From positions 1 to 41,139 of the forward strand of contig JAGCPK010000154.1 of assembly GCA_017965725.1 (NCBI GenBank): a stretch of 41,139 nucleotides of DNA. The letters are read 5' to 3'. The position numbers and the translations under genes were made by a program. Origin of the DNA: Prevotella sp. GTDB taxonomy: Bacteria; Bacteroidota; Bacteroidia; Bacteroidales; Bacteroidaceae. Under the pieces are notes generated by a model. It made no database searches. It was not told the DNA's origin and saw only the letters and a program-made list of their open reading frames with translations. This document shows, one piece after another, positions 16,050-31,255 of this stretch; positions within the stretch are counted from its first letter, which is position 1; every line of letters starts with the position of its first letter.

Positions 16050-16077
16050 GTCATTAAAGTTTTCAAGTTTTATTTTG

Positions 16078-16109: not shown

Positions 16110-16117
16110 TAAATTGC

Positions 16118-16125: not shown

Positions 16126-16143
16126 CAGCAAAATAGCTGGAAT

Positions 16144-16650: not shown

Positions 16651-16656
16651 TCAGTT

Positions 16657-17721
16657 TTATCTACGGCCTCCGAAGTGTCCGCCGCCTCCACCGCGAGAAC
16701 CACCACTGCTATGAGAGGAGGATCCGGCACTGCTGTGCGAGGAACTGCTGCTACGAGAGGGGCTGGTAGTGGTACGGGTGCTGGTGCGTGGAGCACTGCT
16801 ACTGTGAGAGATGCTACTGCTCTGCGACCTGTTGCCACTGAAAGACCCGCTACTATTGCTACTGCTGCGCGATGGTGTAGAAATTGTGCGCGATGGGGTA
16901 CTGTTATTATTGCGCGACGGCGTGGTAATCGTGCGTGACGGGGTATTATTGTTACTATTATTGCTGCGGTTTGGAGCCGTCGTGTTCGGACGTGTATTCT
17001 CCCTGCGAGAACCGCTGAACGAACCCTGCCTGTTTTCAGATCTGTTACCGCGGTTGTTCTCAACCCTGCTGCCACGATTGTTGTCGATTCTGTTACCACG
17101 ATTGTTATCAACTCTGCCGCCACGATTGTTATCAACTCTTCTACTGCCGCGGTCAGGTCCACCAGTCACACGGGTAGAACTATTACGATGGTTGCGGAAG
17201 TCGCCACGATCCCAACGGTCGTGCATGCCTACGTGCTCTCTTCTTGGGGCGCGGAAGTGGTCTCTGCGATCGTAATAGTAGCCATGTCCACCATGAACAT
17301 GCCAGGCATGTCCGCCACGATAGGTGGCATAGAAAGCAGGACGTCCGAAATAGAAATAGTCGCGGTGCGGATAGCGGGCATAGATACCGAAGTGCCAGTA
17401 GCCTGCCTCCCAATAGAGCGGACGATAGAAATAGGTGGCTGCGATGTAAGCCTGCCACTGCCAGTCGAGCAGGATATAACTCAGGTCGAGGTTACGACGC
17501 TCCCAATAGGTACCGAAGACGTCGGCACGCCCAGTCACACCCATCAGATAGTCGAGGTTGATTTCGTAGGCTGCCTCATACTGCTCGTCGGTGAGGTTGA
17601 GTTCGTATGCCATCTTATCAGTTAAGAACAAGGCTTCGTTGCGGGCCTGCTCGAAACTCATTGCATATGCCGACACCGTCATGGTGAGCATTGCGATCAG
17701 GGTCATCATCATCTTCTTCAT
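16657..17721 (-). CDS. Exported low-complexity Arg/Gly/Asn/Ser-rich protein
   Basis: A 354-residue protein of unknown function. A signal peptide (1-20) is followed by an alpha-helical segment (about 22-60) and an aromatic-rich region (about 70-150: YFYRPLYWEAGYWHFGIYAR, FYFGRPAFYATYRGGHAW). From about 160 on it is low complexity: four or five copies of RVDNNRGG-like repeats (195-231), TPSRTITTPSR-type repeats (259-286), Ser-rich tracts and a Gly-rich end (GGGGGHFGGRR). The strongly basic repetitive tail suggests binding to anionic polymers such as polysaccharide, nucleic acid or cell wall; that is inference. The start at 17721 begins the signal peptide; the frame continues to 17784 without support. 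Similar aromatic-plus-repeat proteins occur in Bacteroidales, but I cannot name a family. Confidence 0.75.
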   Translation of the reverse strand: MKKMMMTLIAMLTMTVSAYAMSFEQARNEALFLTDKMAYELNLTDEQYEAAYEINLDYLMGVTGRADVFGTYWERRNLDLSYILLDWQWQAYIAATYFYRPLYWEAGYWHFGIYARYPHRDYFYFGRPAFYATYRGGHAWHVHGGHGYYYDRRDHFRAPRREHVGMHDRWDRGDFRNHRNSSTRVTGGPDRGSRRVDNNRGGRVDNNRGNRIDNNRGSRVENNRGNRSENRQGSFSGSRRENTRPNTTAPNRSNNSNNNTPSRTITTPSRNNNSTPSRTISTPSRSSSNSSGSFSGNRSQSSSISHSSSAPRTSTRTTTSPSRSSSSSHSSAGSSSHSSGGSRGGGGGHFGGRR

Positions 17722-17807
17722 AATTGTATCATTTTTAATTGTTCGACATCTTTTTTTACTATTCACGATGCAAAGGAACAACATTTTTCGTATGTTTACA
17801 AAGGATT

Positions 17808-17852
17808 TTCCCTAAAACGAGGGGGGAAATTCCCTAAAAAGATGTATCTTTG
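17808..17852 (+). promoter_or_regulatory. Promoter and 22-base-spaced direct repeat upstream of the Wzi-like gene
   Basis: TATCTTTG (17845-17852) followed by CACGG is the -7 element. Upstream, TTCCCTAAAA occurs twice (17808-17817 and 17830-17839), 22 bases apart, about two helix turns, with the second copy ending 5 bases before the -7 element. A palindromic GGGAAATTCCC overlaps the second copy. No -33 TTTG is visible, so activation through the repeats is plausible. Confidence 0.45.
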
Positions 17853-17890
17853 CACGGAAATGACGAGAAACGTAATAAATAAAACGACTT

Positions 17891-17895
17891 GGAGG
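17891..17895 (+). promoter_or_regulatory. GGAGG ribosome-binding site that decides the start of the Wzi-like gene
   Basis: GGAGG lies 9 bases before the ATG at 17905. Shine-Dalgarno sites are rare in this window. Earlier in-frame ATGs at 17842 and 17860 fall on the promoter or at the transcription start. Confidence 0.6.
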
Positions 17896-17904
17896 ATAAA
17901 AGTG

Positions 17905-19386
17905 ATGGTGATGATCATCACTTGTCATTTGTCGCTTACTACTTCCTTCGCCCAGGTGGATAGCCTGTGTTATCGGGCAGAGTTGCAGACCACATTAGGA
18001 ACAGGCGATTATAATCCATTGTGGTTGAATGCCAATAAATATGGACTCAGTTCACTGAAGACGAGAAACGGTTATCTGCGTGGTGCCGTTGAGCGTCCTT
18101 TATCATTGAATGACGGACGGAAATGGGGCTTTGGCTTTGGCGCGGATGTGGCTCTGGCTGCAGGCTTCACAAGTACACTAGTGGTACAACAAGCGTATGT
18201 GGAGGGACGTTGGCTCAAAGGTATGTTGACCGTGGGAGCCAAGGAACAGCCGATGGAACTGAAAAACATGGAACTGAGTAGTGGACCGCAGACGTTGGGT
18301 ATTAACGCCCGTCCAATACCGCAGGTCAGGGTGGCTCTTCCCGATTACTGGATAATCCCCGGAACCAAGCAATGGCTTGCTCTGAAAGGACATATCGCTT
18401 TTGGTAAAACGACAGACGATAAGTGGCAAAAGGACTTTTCTAGTCAGCAGAGTCGATACACCGAGGGAACGCTTTATCATAGCAAGGCGGGCTATCTGAG
18501 AATCGGTCCGAAGAATGTTACGGTGACGGTAGGGTTGGAGATGGCGAGTCAGTTTGGCGGAAAAGTCTGGCTCTTTGACAATGGTATCAAACAAGAGGTA
18601 GAAAATCAGAGTGGACTGTCTGCGTTCATGCATGCCCTATTCTATGGAGGCTCAGACAAAACGGACGGAGATTTCAAGAATACGGAAGGCAACCAGTTGG
18701 GTAGTGGACTGATTCGTGTTGACATCCATCAACCAGATTGGAGCCTTGGACTTTATGCCGACAAGTTCTTTGAGGACTATTCGATGATGGTTCACATGAA
18801 TAAGAGTGGCGACGGCTATTTTGCCTATGACTTCAAGGATTTCCTGCTGGGTGCAGAATTGCAGTTGGAGCGTACACCTTGGCTGAAAAGTGTTGTACTC
18901 GAATACCTCTATACAAAGTATCAGAGCGGTCCGGTATATCACGATCAGACATCCAATGTACCCATCCAGATCAGTGCCCGCGACAATTACTATAACCATT
19001 ATCTTTTTACAGGATGGCAACACTGGGGACAGGTGATGGGCAACCCGCTCTATCTCTCACCACTATATAACGAGGATGGTGCCATCGAGGTAAAGCACAA
19101 CCGCTTTGTGGCTTGGCATCTTGGAGTGAACGGCGATCCGGCAATGAACTGGCACTATCGGTTATTGGCTTCTTGGCAGAAAAGTTATGGCTCCTACTAT
19201 TATCTGCCCGTTGAGCCTGTCAGCAACTGGAGTCTATTGGCTGAGGCATCATGGAACTTGCCAAAGGGCGGATGGAGCATCAAGGGTGCTATGGGTCTTG
19301 ATTCTGGAGACTTGCGGGGAAAGAACTTTGGCTTTCAGTTGGGAGTTCAGAAGACGGGTTGGTTGAACATAAAGAAGAAACGGTGA
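17905..19386 (+). CDS. Capsule assembly Wzi-like outer-membrane barrel protein
   Basis: A 493-residue exported protein with a short signal peptide (MVMIITCHLSLTTSFAQ) followed by a beta-barrel pattern of alternating aromatic strands throughout, such as YNPLWLNANKYGLSSL, YLRGAVERPL and WGFGFGADVALAAGF. Features of the Wzi-type capsule assembly family are the N-terminal NPLWLNANKYG segment, ELSSGPQTLGINARPIPQVR and VLEYLYTKYQSG. Wzi in E. coli helps anchor capsule at the surface; Bacteroidales homologues usually sit with polysaccharide loci. Here two such clusters lie just downstream. The start is set by the GGAGG site. Its TGA overlaps the ATG of the next gene (TGATG), so the two are translationally coupled. 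Confidence 0.8.
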   Translation: MVMIITCHLSLTTSFAQVDSLCYRAELQTTLGTGDYNPLWLNANKYGLSSLKTRNGYLRGAVERPLSLNDGRKWGFGFGADVALAAGFTSTLVVQQAYVEGRWLKGMLTVGAKEQPMELKNMELSSGPQTLGINARPIPQVRVALPDYWIIPGTKQWLALKGHIAFGKTTDDKWQKDFSSQQSRYTEGTLYHSKAGYLRIGPKNVTVTVGLEMASQFGGKVWLFDNGIKQEVENQSGLSAFMHALFYGGSDKTDGDFKNTEGNQLGSGLIRVDIHQPDWSLGLYADKFFEDYSMMVHMNKSGDGYFAYDFKDFLLGAELQLERTPWLKSVVLEYLYTKYQSGPVYHDQTSNVPIQISARDNYYNHYLFTGWQHWGQVMGNPLYLSPLYNEDGAIEVKHNRFVAWHLGVNGDPAMNWHYRLLASWQKSYGSYYYLPVEPVSNWSLLAEASWNLPKGGWSIKGAMGLDSGDLRGKNFGFQLGVQKTGWLNIKKKR

Positions 19387-19820
19387 TGAAACGATTTGTA
19401 TTATATATAATAATAGGTATAGGATTGACGGCCTGTAGTAACGTGGAATTCTCTAACAATGGCGACCTTGATGGCTTCTGGCTGTTAAGCAGCGTGGATT
19501 CGATTCAAATTGGAAAGAACTATGACTGTCGTACGCTTGGGTTGACCTGGGCTTTTCAAGGAAAGATACTAGAAGTTAGGGATGTGAACAGGGTACATCA
19601 GGATATTATCATGTCGTTTAATCATACAGACAACCAACTAAAGACATTTTCTCCTTATTTGGTGTATCGAGAGGAGGGCGACTGGCCAATAGACGATACG
19701 GACTATCTGAAACCTTACGGTATCAATAGACTGGAAGAGAGTTTCAGAGTGTTGGAGTTGACAAGTAGTGAAATGACGCTGGAGTCAGATATCTTACGGC
19801 TTCATTTCAGGAAATACTGA
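19386..19820 (+). CDS. Small lipocalin-like lipoprotein
   Basis: A 144-residue lipoprotein precursor: hydrophobic signal, then lipobox LTAC with Cys near residue 17. The mature part opens with DLDGFWLLSSVDSI, reminiscent of the first strand of lipocalin-like proteins, and continues as alternating short strands to ILRLHFRKY. The family call is tentative. The ATG at 19386 shares a base with the stop of the Wzi-like gene, so it belongs to that operon and may work with the barrel protein at the outer membrane. It ends 5 bases from the convergent GT2 gene, with no clear terminator between. Confidence 0.7.
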   Translation: MKRFVLYIIIGIGLTACSNVEFSNNGDLDGFWLLSSVDSIQIGKNYDCRTLGLTWAFQGKILEVRDVNRVHQDIIMSFNHTDNQLKTFSPYLVYREEGDWPIDDTDYLKPYGINRLEESFRVLELTSSEMTLESDILRLHFRKY

Positions 19821-19825
19821 GTTTT

Positions 19826-20635
19826 TTATCTAAGCAGACGTAAGTATATCTTTCGTCTCCATTGGCTAGGCAACATGCGTATGATGGTACGGATGGCAGT
19901 ATTCAATACCATACGTCCCCAACTAATGTAGCCTTTCTTGTAAAATGAGATCTGAAGGGGAATCTCCCTGCGGGAATAGTTCCATCCGCCACGACGCCTG
20001 GCAAAATCATCAGACATACGGAAATAGAGCAGTGAACGCTGAATATTGTAGAATTTGCTGCCCCTCAGCATCATCCGTACCCATAGGTCGTAGTCTTCCA
20101 CCTGAGGAGAATGGATATAATAGCCTGCAGCCTTGACAGCCTGATGGCGGAACATGACCGTAGGATGATTCATGGGATTACGCTTCTTACCGAATTGAAT
20201 GATAGCTTCATGGTCTTCAGGTAACCTACGGGTTGACAAGATATTGGAAATGCTGTCGGAAAATTCGTCTGCCCAAGAACCGACAATATCATATTCAGGA
20301 TGACTCTTCATGAAATTAACCTGAGTCTCAAAACGGTCAGGTTTGCAGATGTCGTCAGCATCCATACGGGCCACCAGATCATAGGTGCAATACTTCAGTC
20401 CTTCGTTGAGGGCATGACCGATACCGCCATTCTCCGGCAACTTGATGGTCTTCAGTTCAGGGTGGTTCTGCTGACTTTTAGTGATGATATCGTCCAACTC
20501 AGAAGTCAACGGCCCATCCTCTACCAGTACGATTTCCGTGGCTGGTAGTGTCTGGCTAAAGAGGCTGTCGAAGCATTCGCGTAGGTGTTTAGGCTCCTCT
20601 TTTTTATATATAGGAATTAGTACAGAAAACTCCAT
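19826..20635 (-). CDS. Family 2 glycosyltransferase
   Basis: A 269-residue GT-A enzyme that transfers a sugar from a nucleotide donor, normally with inversion (beta linkage). It starts directly with MEFSVLIPIYKKEE, followed by EIVLVEDGPL, GGIGHALNEGL and the metal-binding DXD-type motif ARMDADDICKPDR. The acceptor-side motif is VEDYDLWVRMMLRG. The basic hydrophobic C-terminus suggests membrane association. It is the last gene of polysaccharide cluster A, 56 bases after the fucosyltransferase, with a possible promoter of its own at 20653-20660. In a blood-group-like scheme it would add the beta-linked galactose to the first sugar; that is inference. Confidence 0.9.
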   Translation of the reverse strand: MEFSVLIPIYKKEEPKHLRECFDSLFSQTLPATEIVLVEDGPLTSELDDIITKSQQNHPELKTIKLPENGGIGHALNEGLKYCTYDLVARMDADDICKPDRFETQVNFMKSHPEYDIVGSWADEFSDSISNILSTRRLPEDHEAIIQFGKKRNPMNHPTVMFRHQAVKAAGYYIHSPQVEDYDLWVRMMLRGSKFYNIQRSLLYFRMSDDFARRRGGWNYSRREIPLQISFYKKGYISWGRMVLNTAIRTIIRMLPSQWRRKIYLRLLR

Positions 20636-20652
20636 ATCTTAATTTTCGGGTG

Positions 20653-20660
20653 CAAAAGTA
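20653..20660 (-). promoter_or_regulatory. Candidate internal -7 element before the GT2 gene
   Basis: The minus strand reads TACTTTTG followed by CACCC in the 56-base gap between the fucosyltransferase and the GT2 gene, so the last gene of cluster A may also be expressed independently. Confidence 0.45.
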
Positions 20661-20691
20661 CTCAAAAAAAATGAAAAACGTTCATAAATGA

Positions 20692-21564
20692 CTAAATAAT
20701 TATCCAAGAATTTGAGATTGGCGTGTGTGCACCGCTAATATTCCACCATTTTCTGGGTCCAATGACCACTTTATTCTTGTTCGTGTTCAGCCAAGCTCCC
20801 CACCAAGAGAAGGAAGAGTTTGCGATGATTTGGTGGTGACAGAGGGACATAAGATGTATGTCTTGGAAACTCTTTTCGTTCATATTCCAATCCACATAGA
20901 TAGTCTCGGTCTGTCCAAGAAGGGTTGCAAGATGTCTGCGACACCACGAAGCGTCATCAGAAAAAATGCAGAAGACCTCAGGACTCACCATTTCTCTCAT
21001 CCGCTGGATGGCTGTCTGATAATAATCTATGTCGCAGATGTTACGGAAGAGTTTGTCTTTCACATAGTCTCCGCGACGGATGTGGATGGCGCAACTATTC
21101 TTCTCAGTAACATAACGGGCGGTTTTTTGATTTCGTTCATCGTTAAATGCGGGAAAAGAAAAAGATTTCAAGATGACCTCACGAATAGCAATGAAGTATT
21201 CTTCATGTTGCCAATAACCGTCATAATAGGTATCGCCTTCGCGGGTTAAGGCTGTCGAATTAAAAGCATAATCAACCCTTTCTTTGAGCATGGTTTTCCT
21301 GCAAGGCAGAATTCGACTACCGATGCGCCATGTTTGGAAGTTTGGGTAGGGATAAGCCACTTTTGCCACTTCTTTCCAATTGGCTTTTTCATAAGTCACA
21401 TTGAATATTTTCGGCATTTCGAAGCCCCGATGCTTGTGGTAGCCATTGAAGCAGTGAAGATCCAACAATATGCGTTCTTCAGGGAAGTGCTTACGCAGTG
21501 CTTCGTAGAGAGCAAACTGAAACATCTGGTTACCCAGTCCTCCTATAATTTTGACTATCTTCAT
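20692..21564 (-). CDS. GT11 alpha-1,2-fucosyltransferase
   Basis: A 290-residue GDP-fucose-dependent transferase. The three GT11 hallmarks are present: the N-terminal IIGGLGNQMFQFALY (6-20), the donor-binding HIRRGDYV (161-168), and the C-terminal ANSSFSWWGAWL. Known members transfer fucose to O-2 of terminal galactose, making H-type structures. The start at 21564 overlaps the flippase stop as ATGA and begins directly at the GT11 motif; the frame extends upstream to 21636 without support. No GDP-fucose synthesis genes lie in the window, so the donor must come from elsewhere in the genome. It neighbours a GT6 gene, which is significant because GT6 enzymes act on the product of this reaction. 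Confidence 0.93.
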   Translation of the reverse strand: MKIVKIIGGLGNQMFQFALYEALRKHFPEERILLDLHCFNGYHKHRGFEMPKIFNVTYEKANWKEVAKVAYPYPNFQTWRIGSRILPCRKTMLKERVDYAFNSTALTREGDTYYDGYWQHEEYFIAIREVILKSFSFPAFNDERNQKTARYVTEKNSCAIHIRRGDYVKDKLFRNICDIDYYQTAIQRMREMVSPEVFCIFSDDASWCRRHLATLLGQTETIYVDWNMNEKSFQDIHLMSLCHHQIIANSSFSWWGAWLNTNKNKVVIGPRKWWNISGAHTPISNSWIII

Positions 21565-22862
21565 TGGCTTTTCTTCTTTCTGTATTGTTTCCAGTAATAG
21601 AGTGGGGTAGTAGCCACGTAAAATGCCTGTTGCCAAAGGCTGCAGTGTATCAGTCTGCCTGCGATATAACTTACGACAATACTATTCAGGATACTATAGA
21701 CTACCAATAGTGTTAGCAGCACCTCCATATTGTATTGTATGCCCACAAATAGAATTAGTACAAGAACCGTCCTCCTCACGATGTCAAGTTTGAAAAGCAT
21801 GTCAGTGCGTCCTTTCACCAACAGAATGTCCTGATTGATGTCGGAGAAACAAAACACAAACCCTATCACACAGAAATATCTCAGATAGGTGGCTGCCAAT
21901 GCCCATTCCGGGGGGAACAGTAGTCCAATAAACTCATCAGCAAAGATAAACAATAGCACCATGACGGGTGCCAGCACCCAAAAGGCAGTCCCTGTTACCC
22001 GTTGACTATACCGGCCTAGTGCTTCATCATCATTTTGGAAAGTTGACATCATGGAGTAACTTACTCGTTTAATGCCATAACATAAGGTACCTGATGTGAG
22101 ATAAGGTATTTTATTTGCCATGGTGTAGTGGCCTAATATAGTGGCGTTGTAAGCCTTACCTATGACAAAGTTTGGCAAATTGTCTGTAATGGCTGCCAGA
22201 ATATTACTACCAAGTAGGTTCATCGAGAACTTCAGGTATTTCTTTACACACCCCATTGAGAAGTACCATTGTGGGCGCCATTTGCCGAACAACCAGAAGA
22301 AAAGCGTCTGCAGGATTGCAAACGATAGGTTTTGCACAATCAGCCCCCATACATCGCGCCTGTAGTAACTCACAGCAATACCAGCGATACCCGATAAAAA
22401 TACCGCGCAGAAAGATATCAACGACACAGTCTTGAAGTTAACCTCTTTGAACAGTAATCCTTGCTGGACGACGATAAGCGACTGGAATATAAGTGCGAGG
22501 AATGCTACGCGTATCAGGATCGTTAAGCGGGGTTGTTCGTAGAAGTCGGCTATCAAAGGTGCAGCCAACCAGATTATTCCATATACCGCTGTGCCTAAAA
22601 GGATATTAAACCAGAATATTGAACTCTCGTCATTTTTAGTCACGTTTTGTTCGTGTATGAGTGCCTGAGAGAAGCCGCTATCAATTAGGATAGTCGAGAA
22701 AGCCAGAAAGATACTCATCATACTCACCAGTCCGAATTCCTGAGGTGCTACGAATTGAGCGATGATAAACATACAGAGTACTTGTATGCCCATTTTTGTC
22801 ACTCTTTCCGTCATGCTCCAGAAAGTGCCCGTTACTGATTTTCTTATTCCAATCTCTTCCAT
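21561..22862 (-). CDS. Polysaccharide flippase, Wzx/MOP type (cluster A)
   Basis: A 433-residue inner-membrane protein with about 12 predicted helices, expected to flip the lipid-linked repeat unit to the periplasm. The opening (VTGTFWSMTERVTKMGIQVL then FVAPQEFGLVSMMSIFLAFS) and VWGLIVQNLSFAILQTLFF are typical of the WzxC-like branch of the polysaccharide synthesis family. It starts at 22862 within TAATG, sharing one base with the stop of the GT6 gene, and ends in an ATGA overlap with the fucosyltransferase. Such tight coupling argues that GT6, flippase and fucosyltransferase are one functional unit. Confidence 0.88.
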   Translation of the reverse strand: MEEIGIRKSVTGTFWSMTERVTKMGIQVLCMFIIAQFVAPQEFGLVSMMSIFLAFSTILIDSGFSQALIHEQNVTKNDESSIFWFNILLGTAVYGIIWLAAPLIADFYEQPRLTILIRVAFLALIFQSLIVVQQGLLFKEVNFKTVSLISFCAVFLSGIAGIAVSYYRRDVWGLIVQNLSFAILQTLFFWLFGKWRPQWYFSMGCVKKYLKFSMNLLGSNILAAITDNLPNFVIGKAYNATILGHYTMANKIPYLTSGTLCYGIKRVSYSMMSTFQNDDEALGRYSQRVTGTAFWVLAPVMVLLFIFADEFIGLLFPPEWALAATYLRYFCVIGFVFCFSDINQDILLVKGRTDMLFKLDIVRRTVLVLILFVGIQYNMEVLLTLLVVYSILNSIVVSYIAGRLIHCSLWQQAFYVATTPLYYWKQYRKKKSQ

Positions 22863-23629
22863 TATAAATACCATCTTATCGCATCGTACAGAATGACAAT
22901 GCCTTTTTTCAAACGTCCTATTATGGAAAAGTCCCTACCTTTATTGTAGTAGGTGTCGAATCTTGCCTTGTCGCGTATCACAATCTTCGCCTCAAAGGGC
23001 ATCTGTTTCCCCTCTATATAGGCATAAGCGGGTGATAAAGGTTTACAGGCATGGTCGCGCAGGTAACAGTTCAGGTGACTCTCATCATGATACTTGGCGA
23101 TGATTCCCTTTTCCAGATCGTCATGAATGTGCCTGCTGCACGTCTCGGCCAGCATCAGATAATCGTTGGTTCTACCACCGTTCAAACTCCCCATATAGTA
23201 TTTGTAATTCCCTTTTCGAGGTGGAATATAGGCCTTTGATGCCTTGTTGCGTTCGTAGGGGTATCGCCAGACTGGTTTATTATAGTAGCCCGGATGTATT
23301 ACCGCTGCCAATGATGTTGGTAATATTGTCTCATCCACAGGTGCCACAAAAAGCATGTTCGCATTCAGAAAAAAAGTATAGTCGTATGCTTTTAAAATAT
23401 CGGCAATGCTTAGGAACAAGTCGAAGCGCATGAGTGAGTCCATGGGGAATCCTTGGCATTCGCGATGTATCAGTGTTACATTGGGCGCTGTTGTCAACTG
23501 ATCGTTGTCCGTCCACACATAGTAATGCTTCTCCTTGCCTTTTAACATGTAGCGCTCGGAACTCTCATAGAAAGTCTCGAAGAACTGGGCATAACGCCCT
23601 GTGCAGATATATAGCAGTGCTATCTTCAT
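22862..23629 (-). CDS. GT6 glycosyltransferase, histo-blood-group A/B-like, metal-independent type
   Basis: A 255-residue retaining transferase resembling the human ABO enzymes. Shared landmarks: IHPGYYNK and YERNKASKAYIP (human HPGFYG and YERRPQSQAYIP), YYMGSLNGG (human YYLGGFFGG) and YHDESHLNCYL (human WHDESHLNKYL, with the catalytic-site Glu). In place of the metal-binding DVD of animal enzymes it has FLNANMLF (Asn89-Ala-Asn91), the NXN change known from metal-independent bacterial GT6. Residue 146 is Met, as at human position 266 of the B (galactose) enzyme, while 148 (human 268) is Ser, so donor choice between UDP-Gal and UDP-GalNAc is open. The expected reaction is alpha-1,3 addition to Fuc-alpha-1,2-Gal, and the fucosyltransferase lies two genes downstream. 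It overlaps the EpsG stop by ATGA. Confidence 0.9.
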   Translation of the reverse strand: MKIALLYICTGRYAQFFETFYESSERYMLKGKEKHYYVWTDNDQLTTAPNVTLIHRECQGFPMDSLMRFDLFLSIADILKAYDYTFFLNANMLFVAPVDETILPTSLAAVIHPGYYNKPVWRYPYERNKASKAYIPPRKGNYKYYMGSLNGGRTNDYLMLAETCSRHIHDDLEKGIIAKYHDESHLNCYLRDHACKPLSPAYAYIEGKQMPFEAKIVIRDKARFDTYYNKGRDFSIIGRLKKGIVILYDAIRWYL

Positions 23630-24783
23630 TTTTCCCAGTACATGTTATAATTATGGAAACGATCGCTAAAGTCGTAGAAAGAGTATGGTATCAGGTGGTA
23701 CCATTCATTTCTGAATGTCAGAATGATGGCCATCCTTATGGCTAGTATTATGAGTATTGTCACCAGCATCTGTTGTCTCAGGGCAATACACTGGTGTTGC
23801 GCTCCTGTATAGGTCAGGTCGCTTGTGGTGTCTGTAAACTTGAAGAAGGTCATATAAATAAATGGCCAGATATACACATTTAGGCGGAAAAAACTGAGAA
23901 AAGACGGTGTAATGATGCAAACACAAAGACCGAACATCCCTGTCCAGAACACTGTCTTGTCTGGTTTTTGTATGCCCATTTTATTGTATAAGTAAAGACA
24001 ACATAGTATGAGCAACAGCATAAGAGATCCGTCAAGTAACGCAGCAACAGGGAAGGTGTTACGCTTTATGTTCATGATAAAGTATTTTGTTTCTGACAAT
24101 CCAAGAAGGCTGAACATCTCGTAAACAAGGAAAGAGAAAAAAAGGGCGGAACCTAATACAAGAAATACATTACGCTTACATATTTTTAATCTCTGCATCA
24201 AAGGCAGAATAAGCATTACAAGTGCAGATAAGTGGAATAGGGATGCTAACAATACGAGTAGTGTATAAGGCTTCCATCTGTCTTGTTGTAGATAGGGAAA
24301 TGCAATATAAAAAAACATGAGAGCAAATGATTGGCGGATAAGACAGTATTGGTCGAACAGAATCCCAGATAATAACAGCATTAAAAGTGCAAGGGCAATA
24401 TTCCTTGTCTGGCTGGAGATAAATCTGGCATTACCCCAACTAATTATTAAAGAAGAGAATATGATGATTGTAAATGGTTCTTTCGATATGTATTTAATGA
24501 GGAAATGCTGTACTACTTGATATCCATATTCAAAATTGAGCATTAATCGATAGACGAAGATAGATGAGTCTATGTAGTTATGCTGTCTTGTTAGTTGATA
24601 GTAGGATCCATAATAGTGAGGTGTGTCATTCAATACTGTGATGTCCCTGAACCCAAAGAATCCGAAGAGTAGGATGAAACAAGTAATTAACTGGAACAGC
24701 CGTGCTGCTCCAGGACGCTTGAATTGCTTCGAGAGGAAGTGAACTCCAAGGAAGAGGGCAAAATACAGGAAGATGATACCCAT
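23626..24783 (-). CDS. EpsG-family polysaccharide polymerase (Wzy-like, cluster A)
   Basis: A 385-residue inner-membrane protein with about ten hydrophobic helices. EpsG-type features are the early FFGFRDITVLNDTPHYYGSY segment, the middle CLIRQSFALMFFYIAFPYL (an RQ..A motif after helix 4) and WKPYTLLVLLASLFHLSALVMLI with the conserved FH. It probably polymerises the repeat units in the periplasm, since no other polymerase candidate lies in cluster A. The start codon at 24783 is 13 bases after the Wzz stop; the end overlaps the GT6 gene by ATGA. Confidence 0.82.
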   Translation of the reverse strand: MGIIFLYFALFLGVHFLSKQFKRPGAARLFQLITCFILLFGFFGFRDITVLNDTPHYYGSYYQLTRQHNYIDSSIFVYRLMLNFEYGYQVVQHFLIKYISKEPFTIIIFSSLIISWGNARFISSQTRNIALALLMLLLSGILFDQYCLIRQSFALMFFYIAFPYLQQDRWKPYTLLVLLASLFHLSALVMLILPLMQRLKICKRNVFLVLGSALFFSFLVYEMFSLLGLSETKYFIMNIKRNTFPVAALLDGSLMLLLILCCLYLYNKMGIQKPDKTVFWTGMFGLCVCIITPSFLSFFRLNVYIWPFIYMTFFKFTDTTSDLTYTGAQHQCIALRQQMLVTILIILAIRMAIILTFRNEWYHLIPYSFYDFSDRFHNYNMYWEK

Positions 24784-24796
24784 GTCTCAAGAAGCC

Positions 24797-26362
24797 TTAT
24801 TCCTCTTCGGCTAGGATACGTTTAACGTTCTGCTTGACGTAGAAGAAGAATGCGGGAAGGGCTATTCCCAGCAATAGGGCCAGTATCAGTATCGTTCCTT
24901 TCTTTGGGAATACAGGTTTCAGTTTTCCCATTGGAGGTGAAACGATGCGTAGGTTCTGGGCATTATAGACTTGGGTGAGATTGTTCTCTTCGCGCTTTTC
25001 AAGCAGATAGATATAGAGGGCTTCAACAATCTTGTGCTGACGTTCTGCTGGAAGAATCTTCGATACCTTTTCTGGTGCAACGGATATCTGCTGCTTCAGT
25101 TTCTGATCTTCGCGGCTGATACCTTTCTGACTAGCCTGTAATTGTGCGACAGCCTGATCCAAAGAGTTGATGATAGCTTTTCGCATACTACTCAGTTGGT
25201 TGTCAAGGTCCTTAACAAGCGGGTTATTCTCGCTGCTGTTTTCCGCCATGCTGTTGCGCTGCAACTGTAGTTTGTTGTATTCGCCGATCTGGATGGCCAC
25301 ATTCTCATTATCGGGCAGCAGATTAGCTGGCAACACTTGGTTTGTACCGTCTTCTTTCTTGACTTGGTTGCGCATCTGCTCCATCATGTAAAGTTGGTTA
25401 TTCACCTTTACTTGTGCCTCATAAGTCAGGGCGGCATTCTCCATGTACATCTTGGCAGCCTCTGTATAATCGGGCATAAGGTTCCTACCCCTAAACTGGG
25501 CGATGTTATTGTCAAGTCCGCTCAGTTCTGCCTCAATATCCTTGATACGTTCGTTAATGAAACGGGTGGAGGCATCAGCTGTACTTTGCTTATCCTTCAT
25601 CCACTCTTCCTGATAGACTTGTATGAGGGTGTTAATAATTAATTCTGCCCGTTCACCCGACATATCTTTACAGGTAATGCTGATGATATTCGTCAGGTCG
25701 TCAGCCAGGTCGATGTCTATCTGACTCATCAGAGTTTCCACACGGTCGTATTTCCTGTCTTTCGTGATGCGGATGGTCATCTCGCTCTCATTCATCATAC
25801 AGGTATTGAAGGACTTTGTGGCAATGACTGATACAGAACCAATAGGTGTCTGACAGACGGAATTAATCTTCCCTTGTACCTCGCCGTCGAATTTATCCTT
25901 GTTTTTACGGAACTTATAGAGTGTAAAAGTGCCGTCTTTCCGCAGGTCCATTTTCATATATGCCCCCTCCTTGTCAGTCAACTTGGGAAAGGTTACTTTG
26001 ATGGGCAGTGTCTCTTCATAGAGTTCTTTTTTCATCAGTCCGTCATAGACTTCATAGCGGGTGTCGAGTCCCAAACGGCTTACCACCTCTTGTATAAGAA
26101 AAGGTGAAGAGAATATCTGTATCTCGTTCTCAACATTTGACATGATGTTCAATCCGGCCATGCCAGCCAGCATACCCATGTTTGATGCCATTGAGGAAAG
26201 CAACCCGCCACCACCGTTCTCGTCTTTGACGAGTACAGAGGCGGTTCGCTCATATTTTGGAACAGCAATCATGAGAAAAAGGATGGCCAACACCACACAT
26301 AAACAGACTGTTGCTGCAAACCATTTCCACTGCTTCCTGCAGTCTTTAATATATGTATTCAT
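24797..26362 (-). CDS. Wzz-type chain-length determinant protein (cluster A)
   Basis: A 521-residue inner-membrane protein controlling polysaccharide chain length. Membrane helix 1 is at about 15-35 and the Wzz signature follows (VPKYERTASVLVKDE). A Gly/Met-rich loop (LLSSMASNMGMLAGMAGLNI) and VENEIQIFSSPFLIQEVVSRL come next. Coiled-coil segments lie at about 265-310 and 375-430, and the second membrane helix near the end (ILILALLLGIALPAFFFYV) is preceded by a Pro-rich stretch. There is no C-terminal tyrosine kinase domain, unlike BY-kinase fusions. It lies 9 bases after the Wza-like gene in the cluster A operon. Confidence 0.9.
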   Translation of the reverse strand: MNTYIKDCRKQWKWFAATVCLCVVLAILFLMIAVPKYERTASVLVKDENGGGGLLSSMASNMGMLAGMAGLNIMSNVENEIQIFSSPFLIQEVVSRLGLDTRYEVYDGLMKKELYEETLPIKVTFPKLTDKEGAYMKMDLRKDGTFTLYKFRKNKDKFDGEVQGKINSVCQTPIGSVSVIATKSFNTCMMNESEMTIRITKDRKYDRVETLMSQIDIDLADDLTNIISITCKDMSGERAELIINTLIQVYQEEWMKDKQSTADASTRFINERIKDIEAELSGLDNNIAQFRGRNLMPDYTEAAKMYMENAALTYEAQVKVNNQLYMMEQMRNQVKKEDGTNQVLPANLLPDNENVAIQIGEYNKLQLQRNSMAENSSENNPLVKDLDNQLSSMRKAIINSLDQAVAQLQASQKGISREDQKLKQQISVAPEKVSKILPAERQHKIVEALYIYLLEKREENNLTQVYNAQNLRIVSPPMGKLKPVFPKKGTILILALLLGIALPAFFFYVKQNVKRILAEEE

Positions 26363-26371
26363 AGTGGGTGA

Positions 26372-27157
26372 TTATTTAAAGACGAGTACGGCTATTGTTG
26401 TAAGAACAGAGGCAAGCGACAGCCAGAAGGAAATGGAACGGGTCTCATTTCCTGATGCTGTTGACTGTCTTGCCTTGGTGTCGTTGGCTTTAATATAGAT
26501 AATGTCGTTTTGGCGAACATAGTAGGCTTCGGAAGAGAGGAGGTCCTTGGCAGAGTTGAGTCCCAGCACATAAGCCTTTCTTGTACCGTCAACATCCCTT
26601 ACCACCATGATGCTGTCGCGCTTTCCATAGACACCCATGTCGCCAGCCTGTCCAAGTGCCTCAAGTAAGGTCACGGCATCTTTTTGTATCGGATAGACAC
26701 CTGGTTTGTTCACTTCTCCTGTTATGGTGTAACTCAGATTCATGAATTCCACAGTGACATTAGCATCTTTCAACTGCTCTTCTTGCAGTTTCTTCTGGAT
26801 AACCTGTTCTGCTTCATATCGGCTCAGGCTTTTTAACTGGATCTTTCCCAAGACGGGAAAGTCGATGTTTCCGTCTGGTCCTAATGTATAACCTGTCACA
26901 TAGACATTTCCATCTGTCTGTCCGGACTTCATACTGGTACTGATACCCTTATTGAAGAGACTGCTCATCAAGGGATCCTTGCTTTTGACGAGGATGCTGA
27001 TCTGGTCTTTGGGTTGCAGGCGGATGGTACCGTCAACAGAGGTTGTTATGACCTGCCCATTGGTCAGGTCTTGCAGGTAGTTGAAGTTCTTGGGGGTGCT
27101 GCAAGCGGAGATCAAAGCCGTTGCAATCGTCAACAAAAGTATTTTCCCTGTTTTCAT
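26372..27157 (-). CDS. Wza-like polysaccharide export lipoprotein (cluster A)
   Basis: A 261-residue outer-membrane lipoprotein precursor with lipobox LISAC (Cys19). The poly-export domain is visible as IRLQPKDQISILVKSKDP and VTGYTLGPDGNIDFPVLGKI, followed by one SLBB domain (YTITGEVNKPGVYPIQKDAVTL cut at YTITGEVNKPGVYPI). A hydrophobic C-terminal helix (SFWLSLASVLTTIAVLVF) could cross the outer membrane as in Wza, or the inner membrane. It is the second gene of cluster A, 2 bases after the initiating transferase, and is much smaller than the export protein of cluster B. Confidence 0.9.
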   Translation of the reverse strand: MKTGKILLLTIATALISACSTPKNFNYLQDLTNGQVITTSVDGTIRLQPKDQISILVKSKDPLMSSLFNKGISTSMKSGQTDGNVYVTGYTLGPDGNIDFPVLGKIQLKSLSRYEAEQVIQKKLQEEQLKDANVTVEFMNLSYTITGEVNKPGVYPIQKDAVTLLEALGQAGDMGVYGKRDSIMVVRDVDGTRKAYVLGLNSAKDLLSSEAYYVRQNDIIYIKANDTKARQSTASGNETRSISFWLSLASVLTTIAVLVFK

Positions 27158-27159
27158 GT

Positions 27160-27789
27160 TCAGAACTTTTTGCCAAATGCTATATTCAGGAAGGTCAGTA
27201 TCAGCAATTTCGCATCAAACCAAAGTGAACGATGCTCCAGGTAGAAGAGGTCGAGTTCAAGTCGGCGGAGCATCTTCTCCATGGTATCAGTATAACCATT
27301 ATACAAAGTGGCATATGAGGTGACTCCTGGTCTGACTTGGTAGAGATAAGTGTAACGTGGGTCTCTCTCCATAATCTGGTCGATGTAAAACTTCCGCTCA
27401 GGTCTTGGACCGATAAAGGCCATCTCACCTTTCAAGACATTCCACAACTGGGGCAGTTCATCCAAATGGTGTCCGCGGAGAAATTGTCCCACCTTAGTCA
27501 TTCGGGTCTCCCGATCATGCTGGTAGAGTGCCGGACCGTCTTTTTCCGCATCAACCCTCATACTACGGAACTTATAGATGTTGAAAGGCCGCCCGAATCT
27601 TCCTATCCGTTCTTGCTTGAAGATGGCAGGGCCTCCGTCTTCTCGTTTGACGGCAATGTAGCAGACCAGCATCAAGGGAGAAAAGACAATCAAGCATACA
27701 AACGCCGTACAAAAGTCAATAATCCTTTTGATATTGCGCTCAAATTCGTTCATTCCATCAACAATATATCCGTCTCTGAGGGTAGTCAT
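27160..27789 (-). CDS. Initiating undecaprenyl-phosphate sugar phosphotransferase
   Basis: A 209-residue monotopic phosphoglycosyl transferase (bacterial sugar transferase family), putting the first sugar phosphate on undecaprenyl phosphate. Landmarks: an N-terminal re-entrant membrane helix (FCTAFVCLIVFSPLMLVCYI), the KQERIGRFGRPFNIYKFRSM region, HLDELPQLWNVLKGEMAF and IGPRPE. It is the short form without the extra membrane domain of WbaP. The first ATG at 27789 is used; a second at 27753 (MNEFERNIKR) is possible. It is the first gene of cluster A, behind a structured leader. Cluster B lacks such an enzyme, so this one could serve both. The sugar, often a HexNAc or a diamino sugar in this class, is not determined. 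Confidence 0.92.
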   Translation of the reverse strand: MTTLRDGYIVDGMNEFERNIKRIIDFCTAFVCLIVFSPLMLVCYIAVKREDGGPAIFKQERIGRFGRPFNIYKFRSMRVDAEKDGPALYQHDRETRMTKVGQFLRGHHLDELPQLWNVLKGEMAFIGPRPERKFYIDQIMERDPRYTYLYQVRPGVTSYATLYNGYTDTMEKMLRRLELDLFYLEHRSLWFDAKLLILTFLNIAFGKKF

Positions 27790-27909
27790 TAATCAATAAT
27801 TAGATATTTTGAGTTTCGTTTAATTTAAAACGAAACTCCATGGTTTTTATTGTATATTTTTTCAAAAAAAACATTATTCCACAAATAATACAATGTTCTT
27901 TTTTAAATT
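27790..27909 (-). promoter_or_regulatory. Structured leader of cluster A with attenuator-like hairpin
   Basis: Two structures lie between the predicted transcription start (about 27909) and the first gene. The first is a weak AT stem (AACAT with ATGTT, extended by TATT with AATA) followed on the minus strand by eight U residues (27871-27864), attenuator-like. The second is a perfect 11-base stem, 27811-27821 with 27828-27838 and a 6-base loop, ending 22 bases before the start codon without a U tract. Regulation by attenuation or processive antitermination is inferred; no nusG-like (UpxY) gene is in the window. Confidence 0.45.
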
Positions 27910-27915
27910 CGGCTG

Positions 27916-27947
27916 CAAAGATACAAAAAAACTTAGATATATGCAAG
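27916..27947 (-). promoter_or_regulatory. Promoter of polysaccharide cluster A
   Basis: On the minus strand CTTG (27947-27944) and TATCTTTG (27923-27916) are separated by 20 bases. No flanking inverted repeats like those of invertible Bacteroides capsule promoters were seen. Confidence 0.6.
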
Positions 27948-28005
27948 AAATATACTCTTTTTATCTAGTGTTTCTTCGTACCTTTGTAGGAAAGGCTATC
28001 TGTGC

Positions 28006-29124
28006 TTATGATAATTCTTGATATATCTCCATATGTCGGTTGATAACTTCTTCTATGGAGAATTTTGCAACAGCAATTTTCCGAGACTCTTTTCCCATAG
28101 CAATTCTCATTGCTTCGTCGTTTACTAGCAATGCTATTTTTTCCGCCAGTTGCTCAGGCGATTTAATGGAAATGAGGAATCCGTTTAACCTATCGACAAC
28201 AGTCTCTCTGCATCCAATCCAGTCGGTGGTAATGATAGGACGTCCTATAGCAGTGGCTTCTATTAGTGACTTGGGGATTCCTTCGCGATAATAGGATGGT
28301 AGTAGGACGACGGCAGCTTCTTCTAAGAGTTCCTTGACATCAGTGCGTTGCCCTAGATATTGAATGTATTTCCCGTCACAGACCTCGTCGAGTACTTCTT
28401 TGCTGACGGCACTCGGATTCGTTTCAATCAGACCGCACAGTAGAAAACATATTTTGTCTTCATAATCTGGCTTAAGTATTTGGGCGGCTTTGATAATATC
28501 CAAGACGCCTTTTTCCTCTACCATTCTTGATGTATAGAGCATTTTAAGTGGGTAGCCAGTTACTGCAGGCGTTTCCTGAAAGACATCCAAATTGATTCCT
28601 GAACCGTTGATACGTCTTATCTGATCAGGGCGAATAACACCTCTTGATACAAAGAAATCTCTATCTTGGTCGTTTTGGAAAATGGTCAGCACCTTCTCTC
28701 TGCGATGTGCAAAGCGTACCAGTTTCATGAAGATCCATTTGATAGCAGTGTCTACTTCTCCATTTTCAAATAATACTCCCAAACCATTAATGGCATTTAT
28801 TACACGTGGAACGTGTGCCAGTTTTGCCGCCAATCCCCCCCAAAGGGTAACTTTTATACTGACATGGTGCACCATGTCAGGTTTTTCTTTCCGATATAAC
28901 TTATATAGGAATTTTAAGGTTCTTAGCTCTTCTATGGGATTAGAACCGACTCGATTGATAGGCAGATCGATGAAACGTACTCCCATCTTTTCAATCTCCT
29001 CCCGAAAACCGGTGTCTGCTGCCACAACAGTCACGTCGTAACCGTTTTTGACTGCTGCCGCTACAACATCTCTCCGGTGGGAGATTAATTGGTAGTCGAT
29101 ACTAAAGATATAAAAAAGCTTCAT
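28006..29124 (-). CDS. Family 4 glycosyltransferase (between the clusters)
   Basis: A 372-residue GT-B enzyme. The N-terminal domain opens with MKLFYIFSIDYQLISHRRDVV and contains DMVHHVSIKVTLWGGLAAKL. The C-terminal donor domain has LYTSRMVEEKGV and the GT4 signature EGIPKSLIEATAIGRPIITT with the EX7E pair. The overall style resembles CapM/PglA-type transferases that add the second sugar to a lipid-linked HexNAc, so it could work right after the initiating enzyme encoded next to it; this is inference. It has its own promoter (29163-29170) and is separated from cluster A by 216 bases with another promoter. It may feed either cluster. Confidence 0.88.
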   Translation of the reverse strand: MKLFYIFSIDYQLISHRRDVVAAAVKNGYDVTVVAADTGFREEIEKMGVRFIDLPINRVGSNPIEELRTLKFLYKLYRKEKPDMVHHVSIKVTLWGGLAAKLAHVPRVINAINGLGVLFENGEVDTAIKWIFMKLVRFAHRREKVLTIFQNDQDRDFFVSRGVIRPDQIRRINGSGINLDVFQETPAVTGYPLKMLYTSRMVEEKGVLDIIKAAQILKPDYEDKICFLLCGLIETNPSAVSKEVLDEVCDGKYIQYLGQRTDVKELLEEAAVVLLPSYYREGIPKSLIEATAIGRPIITTDWIGCRETVVDRLNGFLISIKSPEQLAEKIALLVNDEAMRIAMGKESRKIAVAKFSIEEVINRHMEIYQELS

Positions 29125-29162
29125 TTATAAACTGAATTCCTTCTGTATATTCTTAGAGGGTG

Positions 29163-29170
29163 CAAAGGTA
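29163..29170 (-). promoter_or_regulatory. Candidate -7 element of the GT4 gene
   Basis: The minus strand reads TACCTTTG followed by CACCC, matching TAnnTTTG, 39 bases upstream of the GT4 start. Confidence 0.55.
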
Positions 29171-29253
29171 CGCATATTTTCTGATAAAAATGTATAATGT
29201 GCTTGTTTTTTTTATTTTTTCGTTAAAAAACCTATTATAATGTTTCATTTTCT

Positions 29254-29284
29254 TTTGAGATTTACAAAAATGTTATTACTTTTG
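29254..29284 (+). promoter_or_regulatory. Promoter of the beta-helix gene
   Basis: TTTG (29254-29257) and TACTTTTG (29277-29284) are 19 bases apart, a full Bacteroidetes-type match. Transcription would start near 29291. Confidence 0.7.
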
Positions 29285-29336
29285 CAAAGGGATTAATAAA
29301 ACTATAACAATGCGACAATATCATTGTAAAGAGCAT

Positions 29337-30635
29337 ATGAAAATGAATTTATTTCTTAAATACCGGGCATTGACAGTCCTTATTGGCCTTATGGTATGCA
29401 TGATGGCTGGCGCAGCCCCAACTTATTACGACACAGCCAAGGGTAATATACACCAGCTTTTTAAAAACGGACAGGGCATGTATGTATTACGCTACACCCA
29501 CAAATTTAGTGACACTTTACATGTCCCCCGAGGCTGTGAGGTGAAGTTTAAAGGTGGGAGGTTAGCGGGACCAATAATGTTTGATGATACTAAATTGAGT
29601 GGTAAAGTCAATCTGAAGGGATCACACATACGTGGTAGTGTAAGAAACAATACGTTTAATGCTTCATGGCTTTGCGCTATGGACGGAGTGACTGATGATG
29701 CGCCGCTCATTAATGAGATTATTGCAACCTGCAGAAATGTTTTTTTCCCTAAAGGAATATACCGCTTGGTATCTGCCTATAAGCGTGAGAAATTTCATAT
29801 AGGTATTAATCAGGATAACATTTCGCTTTCAGGAGAGAAAGGAACAGTATTTCTGACGAAGGAGCAGTTGGGAATAGTATGCGTATTCAGCAAGCCTTAC
29901 GATATCGCTAATAGCGTAAGGAATATACAACTGAAAGGCATTACTTTCCGTACAATTAATGATGGTAGCGTGTTTCTACAGTGGACACATGCTATCCAGA
30001 CAAAGGGGGTAAATGGTTTTACCATGGAGAACTGCACCATAGAGGATTTTTGGGGTGATGGTATCTGTCTGAATCATTACGGTGATAATCCTGAGACGGG
30101 TGAAAGGGCGAGAAATCAGAATGTGAGAATAGAAAATAACATCATTATTGGCGGTGATCTCCACAATAACCGCAATGGCATATCGGTTATAAATGGCCAG
30201 AATGTTTTGATTCAGGGAAATGTTATACGTAATACATCGCGTAAAGATATGCCAGGAGCCATTGATGTTGAGCCGAACAATTCCGCATACACCATCGAGG
30301 ATATCAGAATTATTGGCAACACTATCGAAGAGTCGCGTGGAAGATGTGGGGCTATCGAAATATGTATGGTCAATGGTGGTCCAGGATATCACATATACGT
30401 GGAGAATAACTATATTACCAAGTCTAATTTGGGGTTATATTTCTGTCTGAAGACAGAAGATACGACAGAGCACTTTGTTATACGTAACAACCACATTACT
30501 GCTGATACACCGCCTTATAAATTCGTAGGAAACGGCAAGTCGAAGAATTGGAATATTAGCGGTAATAATTTTAAGCGCTCTGTTAGTCAGAAGATACCAG
30601 GAGACTTACGTATTGAAAACCTGCAGGTAAGGTGA
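29337..30635 (+). CDS. Exported right-handed beta-helix (pectate-lyase-like) protein
   Basis: A 432-residue protein with a signal peptide (FLKYRALTVLIGLMVCMMAGA). After an N-terminal strand-rich region (LHVPRGCEVKFKGGRLAGP) comes the pectate-lyase-superfamily opening DGVTDDAPLINEI and VFFPKGIYRLVS. Parallel beta-helix rungs follow: FTMENCTIEDFWGDGICLNH, VRIENNIIIGGDLHNNRNGI, VLIQGNVIRNTS, IRIIGNTIEES, IYVENNYITKS and FVIRNNHITAD. Such folds are polysaccharide lyases, hydrolases, epimerases or binders; catalytic residues cannot be assigned. ATGs at 29310, 29337 and 29343 all precede the signal peptide, so the start is uncertain. It is the only plus-strand gene inside the polysaccharide region and has its own full promoter. 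It may trim, modify or degrade one of the two polymers. Confidence 0.8.
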   Translation: MKMNLFLKYRALTVLIGLMVCMMAGAAPTYYDTAKGNIHQLFKNGQGMYVLRYTHKFSDTLHVPRGCEVKFKGGRLAGPIMFDDTKLSGKVNLKGSHIRGSVRNNTFNASWLCAMDGVTDDAPLINEIIATCRNVFFPKGIYRLVSAYKREKFHIGINQDNISLSGEKGTVFLTKEQLGIVCVFSKPYDIANSVRNIQLKGITFRTINDGSVFLQWTHAIQTKGVNGFTMENCTIEDFWGDGICLNHYGDNPETGERARNQNVRIENNIIIGGDLHNNRNGISVINGQNVLIQGNVIRNTSRKDMPGAIDVEPNNSAYTIEDIRIIGNTIEESRGRCGAIEICMVNGGPGYHIYVENNYITKSNLGLYFCLKTEDTTEHFVIRNNHITADTPPYKFVGNGKSKNWNISGNNFKRSVSQKIPGDLRIENLQVR

Positions 30636-30645: not shown

Positions 30646-30671
30646 TCAAAAAGAGGCTCCTTACGCCTCTT
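30646..30671 (-). terminator. Terminator of cluster B overlapping the last stop codon
   Basis: AAGAGGC (30651-30657) pairs with GCCTCTT (30665-30671) with a 7-base loop, and the minus strand continues into U residues. The TAA of the acyltransferase gene (30663-30661) lies in the loop. On the plus strand only a weak T-rich stretch follows, so use by the beta-helix gene is less certain. Confidence 0.7.
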
Positions 30672-31251
30672 CTATTCTTCTTATTATCTTTGCAGGGTTT
30701 CCTGCGGCAATGCAATTGTCAGGTATATCTTTAACAACAACGCTGCCTGCTCCAATCTTAACATTGTTGCCAATGTGAACATTCCCAATAATGGTAACAG
30801 TGGCACCTAGACTGACATTGTTGCCAATAAATGGGCGTCCTGCTGATGTTGAACCTAATGTGGTACAGTGAAGACAGGTAAAGTTGTCTCCGATGGTATC
30901 GGCATTTAAAATAGTTGCGTAAGGGTGGGCAATACGGCAACCTTTTCCCATCTTTAGTGTTTTGGAAATAGTAAAGTATTTGTCTCCTGGCCTATACCAT
31001 CCGATGAAAAGACTGGCGATAGGACCAATTCTAAAATAAAATAACGAGCGGAAGTATGCGTCGTTATGCAGGAAATAAAGTAATCCGATGATGGGGGACA
31101 TACGAAGGTCTATTCTTTCTAACATTCTTTCTACATCGCTTCTGATGAATTTGTTTCTACCTCCAATCATAAAATGGGGTATGTAAAGCCATCCAAATAC
31201 CAAAGCTCCGAAAAGACGGAAACTGTTTCTTATTTTTCTTTTGTTAACCAT
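30661..31251 (-). CDS. Hexapeptide-repeat acyltransferase (serine acetyltransferase-like)
   Basis: A 196-residue left-handed beta-helix transferase, probably using acetyl-CoA. The first 100 residues are partly hydrophobic (LFGALVFGWLYIPHFMIGG; FYFRIGPIASLFIGWYRPGD). Hexapeptide rungs follow: CRIAHPYATILNADTIGDN, FIGNNVSLGATVTIIGNVHI and GNNVKIGAGSVVVKDIPDNC, with the family end IAAGNPAKII. A catalytic His is probably in FTCLHCTTLG. Such enzymes in polysaccharide clusters O-acetylate a sugar; classical serine acetyltransferase activity is less likely here. It is the last gene of cluster B, 4 bases after a GT4 gene. Confidence 0.85.
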   Translation of the reverse strand: MVNKRKIRNSFRLFGALVFGWLYIPHFMIGGRNKFIRSDVERMLERIDLRMSPIIGLLYFLHNDAYFRSLFYFRIGPIASLFIGWYRPGDKYFTISKTLKMGKGCRIAHPYATILNADTIGDNFTCLHCTTLGSTSAGRPFIGNNVSLGATVTIIGNVHIGNNVKIGAGSVVVKDIPDNCIAAGNPAKIIRRIEEA

Positions 31252-31255
31252 ATTT

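Follow-up and report, generated by a model that had tools for sequence, protein, structure and literature searches.

The 41,139-nt contig JAGCPK010000154.1 of Prevotella sp. assembly GCA_017965725.1 (the whole stretch analysed, hereafter the window) carries eight complete open frames on the minus strand between positions 19826 and 27789. We consider it likely that these genes make up a Wzy-dependent locus for capsule synthesis in a Prevotella-type bacterium, in which an H-antigen-like repeat unit is predicted to be capped by a glycosyltransferase of family GT6 and in which the genes for polymerase, GT6 and flippase form an exchangeable Wzy-GT6-Wzx module. From first to last they encode PGT, Wza, Wzz, Wzy (EpsG), GT6, Wzx, GT11 and GT2, and profile matches place all eight in the families that had been named in the initial annotation:

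27160..27789, minus strand: PGT, initiating sugar-1-phosphate transferase, PglC-like, 209 aa (PF02397, 207 bits, 2.9e-61)
26372..27157, minus strand: Wza-like polysaccharide export lipoprotein (PF02563, 55 bits, and SLBB)
24797..26362, minus strand: Wzz-type chain-length protein (PF02706 (Wzz) and GNVR, 30 and 39 bits)
23626..24783, minus strand: EpsG-family polymerase, Wzy (PF14897, 110 bits, 1.4e-31)
22862..23629, minus strand: GT6 glycosyltransferase, ABO/BoGT6a type (PF03414, 119 bits, 2e-34; NF041524; 4ayj)
21561..22862, minus strand: Wzx flippase, MOP family (PF13440, 250 bits, 3.6e-74)
20692..21564, minus strand: GT11, predicted alpha-1,2-fucosyltransferase, 290 aa (PF01531, 109 bits, 2.5e-31)
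19826..20635, minus strand: GT2, predicted maker of the galactose-ended GT11 acceptor (PF00535, 103 bits, 1.9e-29)
27916..27923, minus strand: Bacteroidetes-type -7 box TATCTTTG upstream of PGT (pattern match alone)

With PGT, Wzx, Wzy, Wzz and an export protein all present, the locus belongs to the Wzx/Wzy-dependent polysaccharide loci. The genes from PGT to Wzy are separated by 2, 9 and 13 nt, Wzy and GT6 overlap by 4 nt (ATGA), GT6 and Wzx by 1 nt (TAATG, given a Wzx start at 22862, with an ATG twelve bases farther upstream as a possible alternative) and Wzx and GT11 again by 4 nt (ATGA, GT11 start at 21564), so that the overlaps of one to four bases reported earlier for the GT6, flippase and GT11 genes are indeed seen. 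Because of these overlaps GT11 is placed at 20692-21564 and Wzx most likely at 21561-22862; the PF13440 search was run with the longer Wzx frame 21561-22874 and the PF01531 search with GT11 minus its first Met. GT2 starts 56 nt downstream of GT11, and the gap contains TACTTTTG at 20660, a match to what we take to be the consensus of the Bacteroidetes-type -7 box; GT2 may therefore have its own promoter. The description of the locus as one tightly coupled operon agrees with gene set and overlaps and has to be qualified at GT2. All -7 boxes are matches to a pattern that the scan also hit elsewhere, partly inside genes. In the PGT leader (27790-27925) two main hairpins are predicted, one of them directly followed by a T run, possibly an attenuator between promoter and PGT. 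Solved relatives of PGT are WbaP and PglC (best E 6e-28 in a comparison with the PDB), and the Wzz-type protein matched PF02706 and GNVR only, a kinase domain not being found by domain search. The GT11 translation features the motifs GGLGNQMFQ and HIRRGDYV and, with PF01531 and HxRRGD both present, falls into CAZy family GT11.

In the proposed pathway, PGT would load the first sugar onto the lipid carrier, as suggested by its family, GT2 would add a hexose, probably galactose, and GT11 would attach an alpha-1,2-linked fucose as is typical of its family, thereby creating an H-antigen-like end. GT6 would then cap this end with an alpha-1,3-linked sugar, galactose (B-like) being likelier than N-acetylgalactosamine (GalNAc, A-like) in view of a Met-Gly-Ser donor pocket. 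The capped unit would pass to the Wzx flippase, which is encoded beside GT6 and fused to it in some relatives, the EpsG-type enzyme would polymerise it, Wza and Wzz would serve in export and a Wzi-type protein would help to hold the polymer at the surface. Exchange of Wzy-GT6-Wzx and Wzy'-Wzx'-GT2b on a largely shared core would give related species H-like forms that are either capped with GT6 or capped otherwise.

A GT6 gene is nearly always accompanied by a GT11 gene, and not the reverse. Among 399 genomes of the family, that of the window included, GT6 occurs in eight and GT11 in 119, and GT11 lies within 3 kb in all seven further GT6 loci, as it does in the window. We also inspected the best 80 of 237 GT6 loci from named genomes, mostly Bacteroidota with several other phyla, covering up to 10 kb on each side (five of the 80 come from genomes that are also represented in the seven loci of the family). 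GT11 is present in 71 of them, 68 times found by a hidden Markov model (HMM) and three times by tblastn (L063, L113, L135). In a tblastn recheck of 12 GT6 loci the gene proved complete in L063 and L113, while in L135 only its start is on the contig; as the frames of L063 and L113 are open, a disrupted gene in the former and stop-codon recoding in the latter were rejected as explanations. The HMM was built from eight GT11 proteins, seven of which come from loci picked for GT6, and was used at E < 1e-5. As a control, 79 EpsG loci from 101 family genomes were inspected with PF01531, and GT11 was found within 10 kb in seven of them, on the basis of a match list that omitted the weakest matches (genome G062 has one such unplaced match); P values for GT6 loci versus this control are rough, as the loci share ancestry and the methods differ somewhat. 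GT11 is often present without GT6. That GT6 appears to need GT11, and not the other way round, would be expected if GT6 uses a fucosylated acceptor. The Bacteroides cutis GT6, which is close to BoGT6a from Bacteroides ovatus (365 bits), also adjoins a GT11 gene. Phages also have GT6 homologues: they occur in 71 records, of which 60 bear the name Synechococcus, and in one (H4) the match overlies a feature with the annotation of a family 11 glycosyltransferase; a pattern search for GT6 in viral contigs returned no match.

In four of the 80 loci (L057, L058, L059, which is from Prevotella sp. ne3005, and L060, all from Prevotella-type genomes) GT6 and Wzx form a single frame of 670-675 aa. The GT6 part is 66-68% and the Wzx part 72.5-78.4% identical to the respective window protein, and both domains were found by Pfam in the fusion of L057. 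In the alignment, the final GT6 residues and the initial Wzx residues are missing at the join. The four fusions may stem from one event. The unfused form is present in Segatella paludivivens DSM 17968. Fusion to the flippase fits a role of GT6 as the last cytoplasmic transferase. Two other long GT6 frames were noted, one of 953 aa with GT6 N-terminal in a Dysgonamonadaceae metagenome-assembled genome (L084:10001-12862) and one of 787 aa with GT6 C-terminal in Akkermansia muciniphila CSUN-56 (L124:3478-5841).

The related genome G508 (L153/L154) features a closely similar locus with a different central part. Compared by blastn with window positions 13571-27790, it matches at 13571-17836, 19822-21564 and 24602-27790 with 75-81% identity, leaving unmatched the following segment:

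21565..24601, no strand assigned: most of Wzy, GT6 and Wzx, the swapped terminal cassette

Further stretches without a blastn match are 17837-19821 (Wzi and a lipoprotein) and 27791-29370 (a GT4 gene), and the window's GT6 and Wzx found no counterpart in the G508 locus by tblastn either. Protein identities amount to 84% for PGT, 85% for Wzz, 65% for Wza, 79% for GT11, 91% for GT2 and 44% for Wzy. G508 has a flippase of a different type, and GT6 is replaced by a gene of the GT2 family (GT2b), resulting in a Wzy'-Wzx'-GT2b module. Of 299 genomes of the genus, the window's own included, 21 encode a GT11 that matches closely (at E 1e-70 or better). Seven of these loci carry GT6 (the window, G150, G644, G677, G541, G667 and G411), 13 carry GT2b and one (G456) neither, an assignment that was reproduced when the 20 loci other than the window's were rechecked by tblastn. 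All six rechecked GT6 loci have the window-type flippase and none has GT2b, while the 13 GT2b loci all lack GT6 and have the G508 flippase type in 11 cases and neither type in two (L182, L190). P values from a Fisher test of cassette against flippase type, calculated for seven and 11 loci with L182, L190 and L174 (no cassette) left out, are rough. The better polymerase match follows the cassette in all 13 loci with a match, five with GT6 (one by a small margin) and eight with GT2b including G508; in seven of the 20 rechecked loci the polymerase matches neither type. GT2 was detected in 19 of these 20 loci, PGT in 17. Since flippase and polymerase types follow the cassette, the capping transferase appears to move together with the flippase, and often the polymerase, on a mostly constant core. 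In a tree built from GT11 of these 21 loci, the cassette label needs five changes, four of which are forced by well-supported branches, and shows no clear clustering (counts as low arose in 122 and 139 of 500 shuffles); a wider GT11 tree, to which rows chosen for having GT6 had been added, shows nine changes and no clustering. GT2b is defined by a match to the G508 gene; outside G508 the identity is 35-73%, so that the label may cover different specificities. It is about an even call whether these arrangements amount to an ABO-like polymorphism among Prevotella species, in which an H-like PGT-GT2-GT11 core is combined with repeatedly exchanged Wzy-GT6-Wzx or Wzy'-Wzx'-GT2b modules and in which GT6 is joined to the flippase in some cases so that only capped units would exit the cytoplasm.

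The GT6 assignment itself is firm, with 296 bits for NCBIfam NF041524 (Gltr_6; cut-off 250) and 119 bits for PF03414 (cut-off 25). The best solved relatives are chains of BoGT6a (4ayj, E 4e-51; 177 bits across window residues 1-223), followed by ABO transferase chains from about 8e-26. Like BoGT6a, the window enzyme has the NXN motif, NAN (N89-A90-N91) at the DXD position, and thus belongs to the NXN branch, which passages of PMC3961637 describe as bacterial and metal-independent. The same passages give a Fuc-Gal acceptor, a GalNAc donor and metal independence as demonstrated for BoGT6a (PMC3961637). Alignment shows that BoGT6a residues Tyr13, Arg73 and Lys231 on the donor side and the catalytic Glu192 are kept as Y13, R68, K221 and E183. 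The donor-selecting stretch YYMGSLNGG (M146-G147-S148) aligns with YYLGGFFGG of 4c2s and YYMGAFFGG of 3sx3, both ABO chains, and differs from BoGT6a, in which the pocket reads Ala-Gly-Gly instead of Met-Gly-Ser. As the corresponding residues are Leu266 and Gly268 in the A enzyme, Met266 and Ala268 in the B enzyme according to passages of PMC4202792, the window pocket looks closer to human B than to A. Met-Gly-Ser recurs in seven of nine named-genome operons with much the same gene set (L057-L060, L063, L065 and L066).

The operon is flanked by genes that bear on the nature and size of the product:

17842..19386, plus strand: Wzi-like capsule assembly outer-membrane protein, convergent neighbour (PF14052, 1.3e-10)
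19359..19820, plus strand: small putative lipoprotein (match in 19 of 29 related loci, duplicates counted)
28006..29124, minus strand: PglA-like GT4 (Campylobacter jejuni PglA chain 8dqd, E 6e-42)

A Wza-type exporter within the operon is thus combined with a Wzi-type surface protein, as is characteristic of capsule loci, and the latter suggests that the product is a capsule. A Wzi match was obtained in 21 of the 29 related loci searched, counting partial loci and duplicate genomes. Identity to the window Wzi is 55-71% in eight GT6-type loci, 30-31% in G508 and G610 and 30 to 69% in other GT2b loci, and none was found in three GT6-type loci (L022, L066, L188) within the sequence stretch covered; Wzi is therefore not strictly tied to the cassette. 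The small lipoprotein has no match in L154 (G508) or L173 (G610). GT4 is preceded by its own -7 box at 29170. A homologue at E 1e-60 is present in nine of 120 genus genomes, the window's own included, and among the 29 related loci tested only that of G508 contains GT4, with a WecA-like initiator (PF00953) next in line; in relatives GT4 is not linked to GT6. Farther along the window, at 30661-40740, resides a second polysaccharide cluster, cluster B, with a Wza-like protein with several SLBB domains, a Wzz-like protein, Wzx, Wzy, two GT4 and a hexapeptide acyltransferase. Domain search detected no initiating transferase there, and in G508 the counterpart of this cluster is followed by GT4 and the WecA-like gene, so that GT4 probably serves cluster B.

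With regard to precursors, the genome (161 contigs, 2.66 Mb, 85% complete) encodes Fkp (856 aa, both domains), a ManC-like protein beside Gmd, and GalE. Capsules containing host fucose are made with Fkp in Bacteroides; the window genome shares Fkp and differs from that system in that Gmd is present as well.

Several observations weigh against a GT6-capped, H-like capsule unit. GT11 was not found in nine of the 80 GT6 loci (L071, L079, L093, L099, L104, L105, L106, L122 and L136). Some of these are short (L071 ends 1.5 kb past GT6, L122 sooner, and L099 totals 3.5 kb); 10 kb on both sides of GT6 are covered in L079 and in the Paenibacillus loci L093, L104 and L105. In the three Paenibacillus loci the GT6 frames are about 360 aa long and the GT6 part is preceded by some 120 residues; these enzymes perhaps use another acceptor. 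Met-Gly-Ser is not universal, L077 and L086, the remaining two of the nine operons, having Met-Gly-Gly and L022 Met-Gly-Cys. Five BoGT6a substrate-contact residues are altered in the window enzyme (Thr134 to Pro124, Trp189 to Tyr180, Trp66 to Phe61, Asn69 to Asp64 and Thr70 to Ser65), and the exact GT6 acceptor may therefore differ from that of BoGT6a; for Thr134 and Trp189, a need in all A/B synthases is not established. Fcl, the last enzyme of de novo GDP-fucose synthesis, did not turn up, no search by name having been made, so that salvage via Fkp is the route seen complete. A second, weak GT11 elsewhere in the same genome (G000:C33:23604-23924, L026) adjoins a lipid A acyltransferase gene, and fucose use need therefore not be confined to this locus. 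GT2 may be transcribed from a promoter of its own. Blastn of the GT6 genes of L118 and L129 against E. coli genomes, run to find WbnI, the GT6 of E. coli O86, gave nothing or chance matches of 24-32 bases. Finally, the sugars handled by GT2 and PGT are not readable from sequence, and A versus B, the linkages and the polymer are predictions. The four-transferase logic of the initial annotation is supported by families, GT6-GT11 linkage, GT6-Wzx fusion and cassette exchange, while its chemistry stays predicted.

Four other explanations can be held against this background. If GT6 transferred GalNAc, the same locus would make blood-group-A-like units, a minor but real possibility given that UDP-GalNAc is, from general knowledge, commonly available in such bacteria. 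Passages of PMC3961637 also present the best-studied bacterial relative, BoGT6a, as A-type, but its Ala-Gly-Gly and the Leu-Gly-Gly of 4c2s contrast with the window's Met-Gly-Ser, 3sx3 having Met-Gly-Ala. Alternatively, the GT6 acceptor could lack fucose or be built differently, with the GT11 fucose forming a side branch at another step and no A/B trisaccharide arising. The changed contact residues and the nine loci without GT11 speak for this, the one-sided dependence of GT6 on GT11 and the exchange of GT6 in G508 while GT11 and GT2 stay speak against it, and we regard it as quite improbable.

The unit could also comprise five sugars, were the PglA-like GT4 to contribute the second residue in the manner of WbnH from E. 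coli O86. Its similarity to PglA and its position just upstream on the same strand fit this proposal, which is weakened by the -7 box of GT4, its presence in G508 alone among the related loci and the WecA-like gene beside it there, fitting cluster B, for which an initiator was not found; we consider a five-sugar unit unlikely. That the product is an O-antigen of lipopolysaccharide or a protein-linked glycan rather than a capsule likewise seems a rather slim prospect. EpsG/Wzy, Wzx and Wzz also serve O-antigens, and Bacteroidota are generally known to O-glycosylate proteins, but a Wza-type exporter is encoded within the operon and a Wzi-type protein next to it.

The proposed GT6-capped capsule locus resembles, by description and not by sequence, that of E. 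coli O86 with WbnH, WbnJ, WbnK and WbnI, in which a GT6 and an alpha-1,2-fucosyltransferase (WbnK, which we take to be a GT11) operate within a Wzx/Wzy pathway. This pathway yields a blood-group-B-bearing repeat according to passages of PMC4506291, which also cover the linkage made by WbnH; that made by PglA is similar. Excerpts of PMC4982269 report binding of anti-B by E. coli O86, and WbnI is listed as GT6 in parts of PMC4202792. Unlike E. coli O86, the window stems from Bacteroidota and has a PglC-type initiator, Wza/Wzi capsule export, a GT4 that is not assigned to the unit and a GT6 gene adjoining the flippase gene (fused in relatives). Helicobacter mustelae BgtA, a bacterial blood-group-A synthase according to the same source (PMC4202792), is likewise comparable by description and not by sequence in that it shares family GT6. 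Bacterial blood-group mimicry as such is already known from E. coli O86, B. ovatus and H. mustelae, as passages of the sources cited here indicate (PMC4202792, PMC3961637, PMC4982269, PMC4506291). A search of the open literature by title and abstract, with most subscription papers outside its reach, returned no description of a Prevotella GT6 locus, a GT6-flippase fusion or a swapped GT6 cassette.

Gut bacteria are believed to elicit the natural antibodies against A and B, Prevotella abounds in guts and rumens, and to our knowledge few producers of A/B-like antigens are known at the gene level. If our reading is true, Prevotella with a GT6/GT11 capsule and a swappable capping module would provide named candidates for the origin of anti-blood-group antibodies, and the transferase-flippase fusion would offer a direct handle on how Wzx selects finished units.

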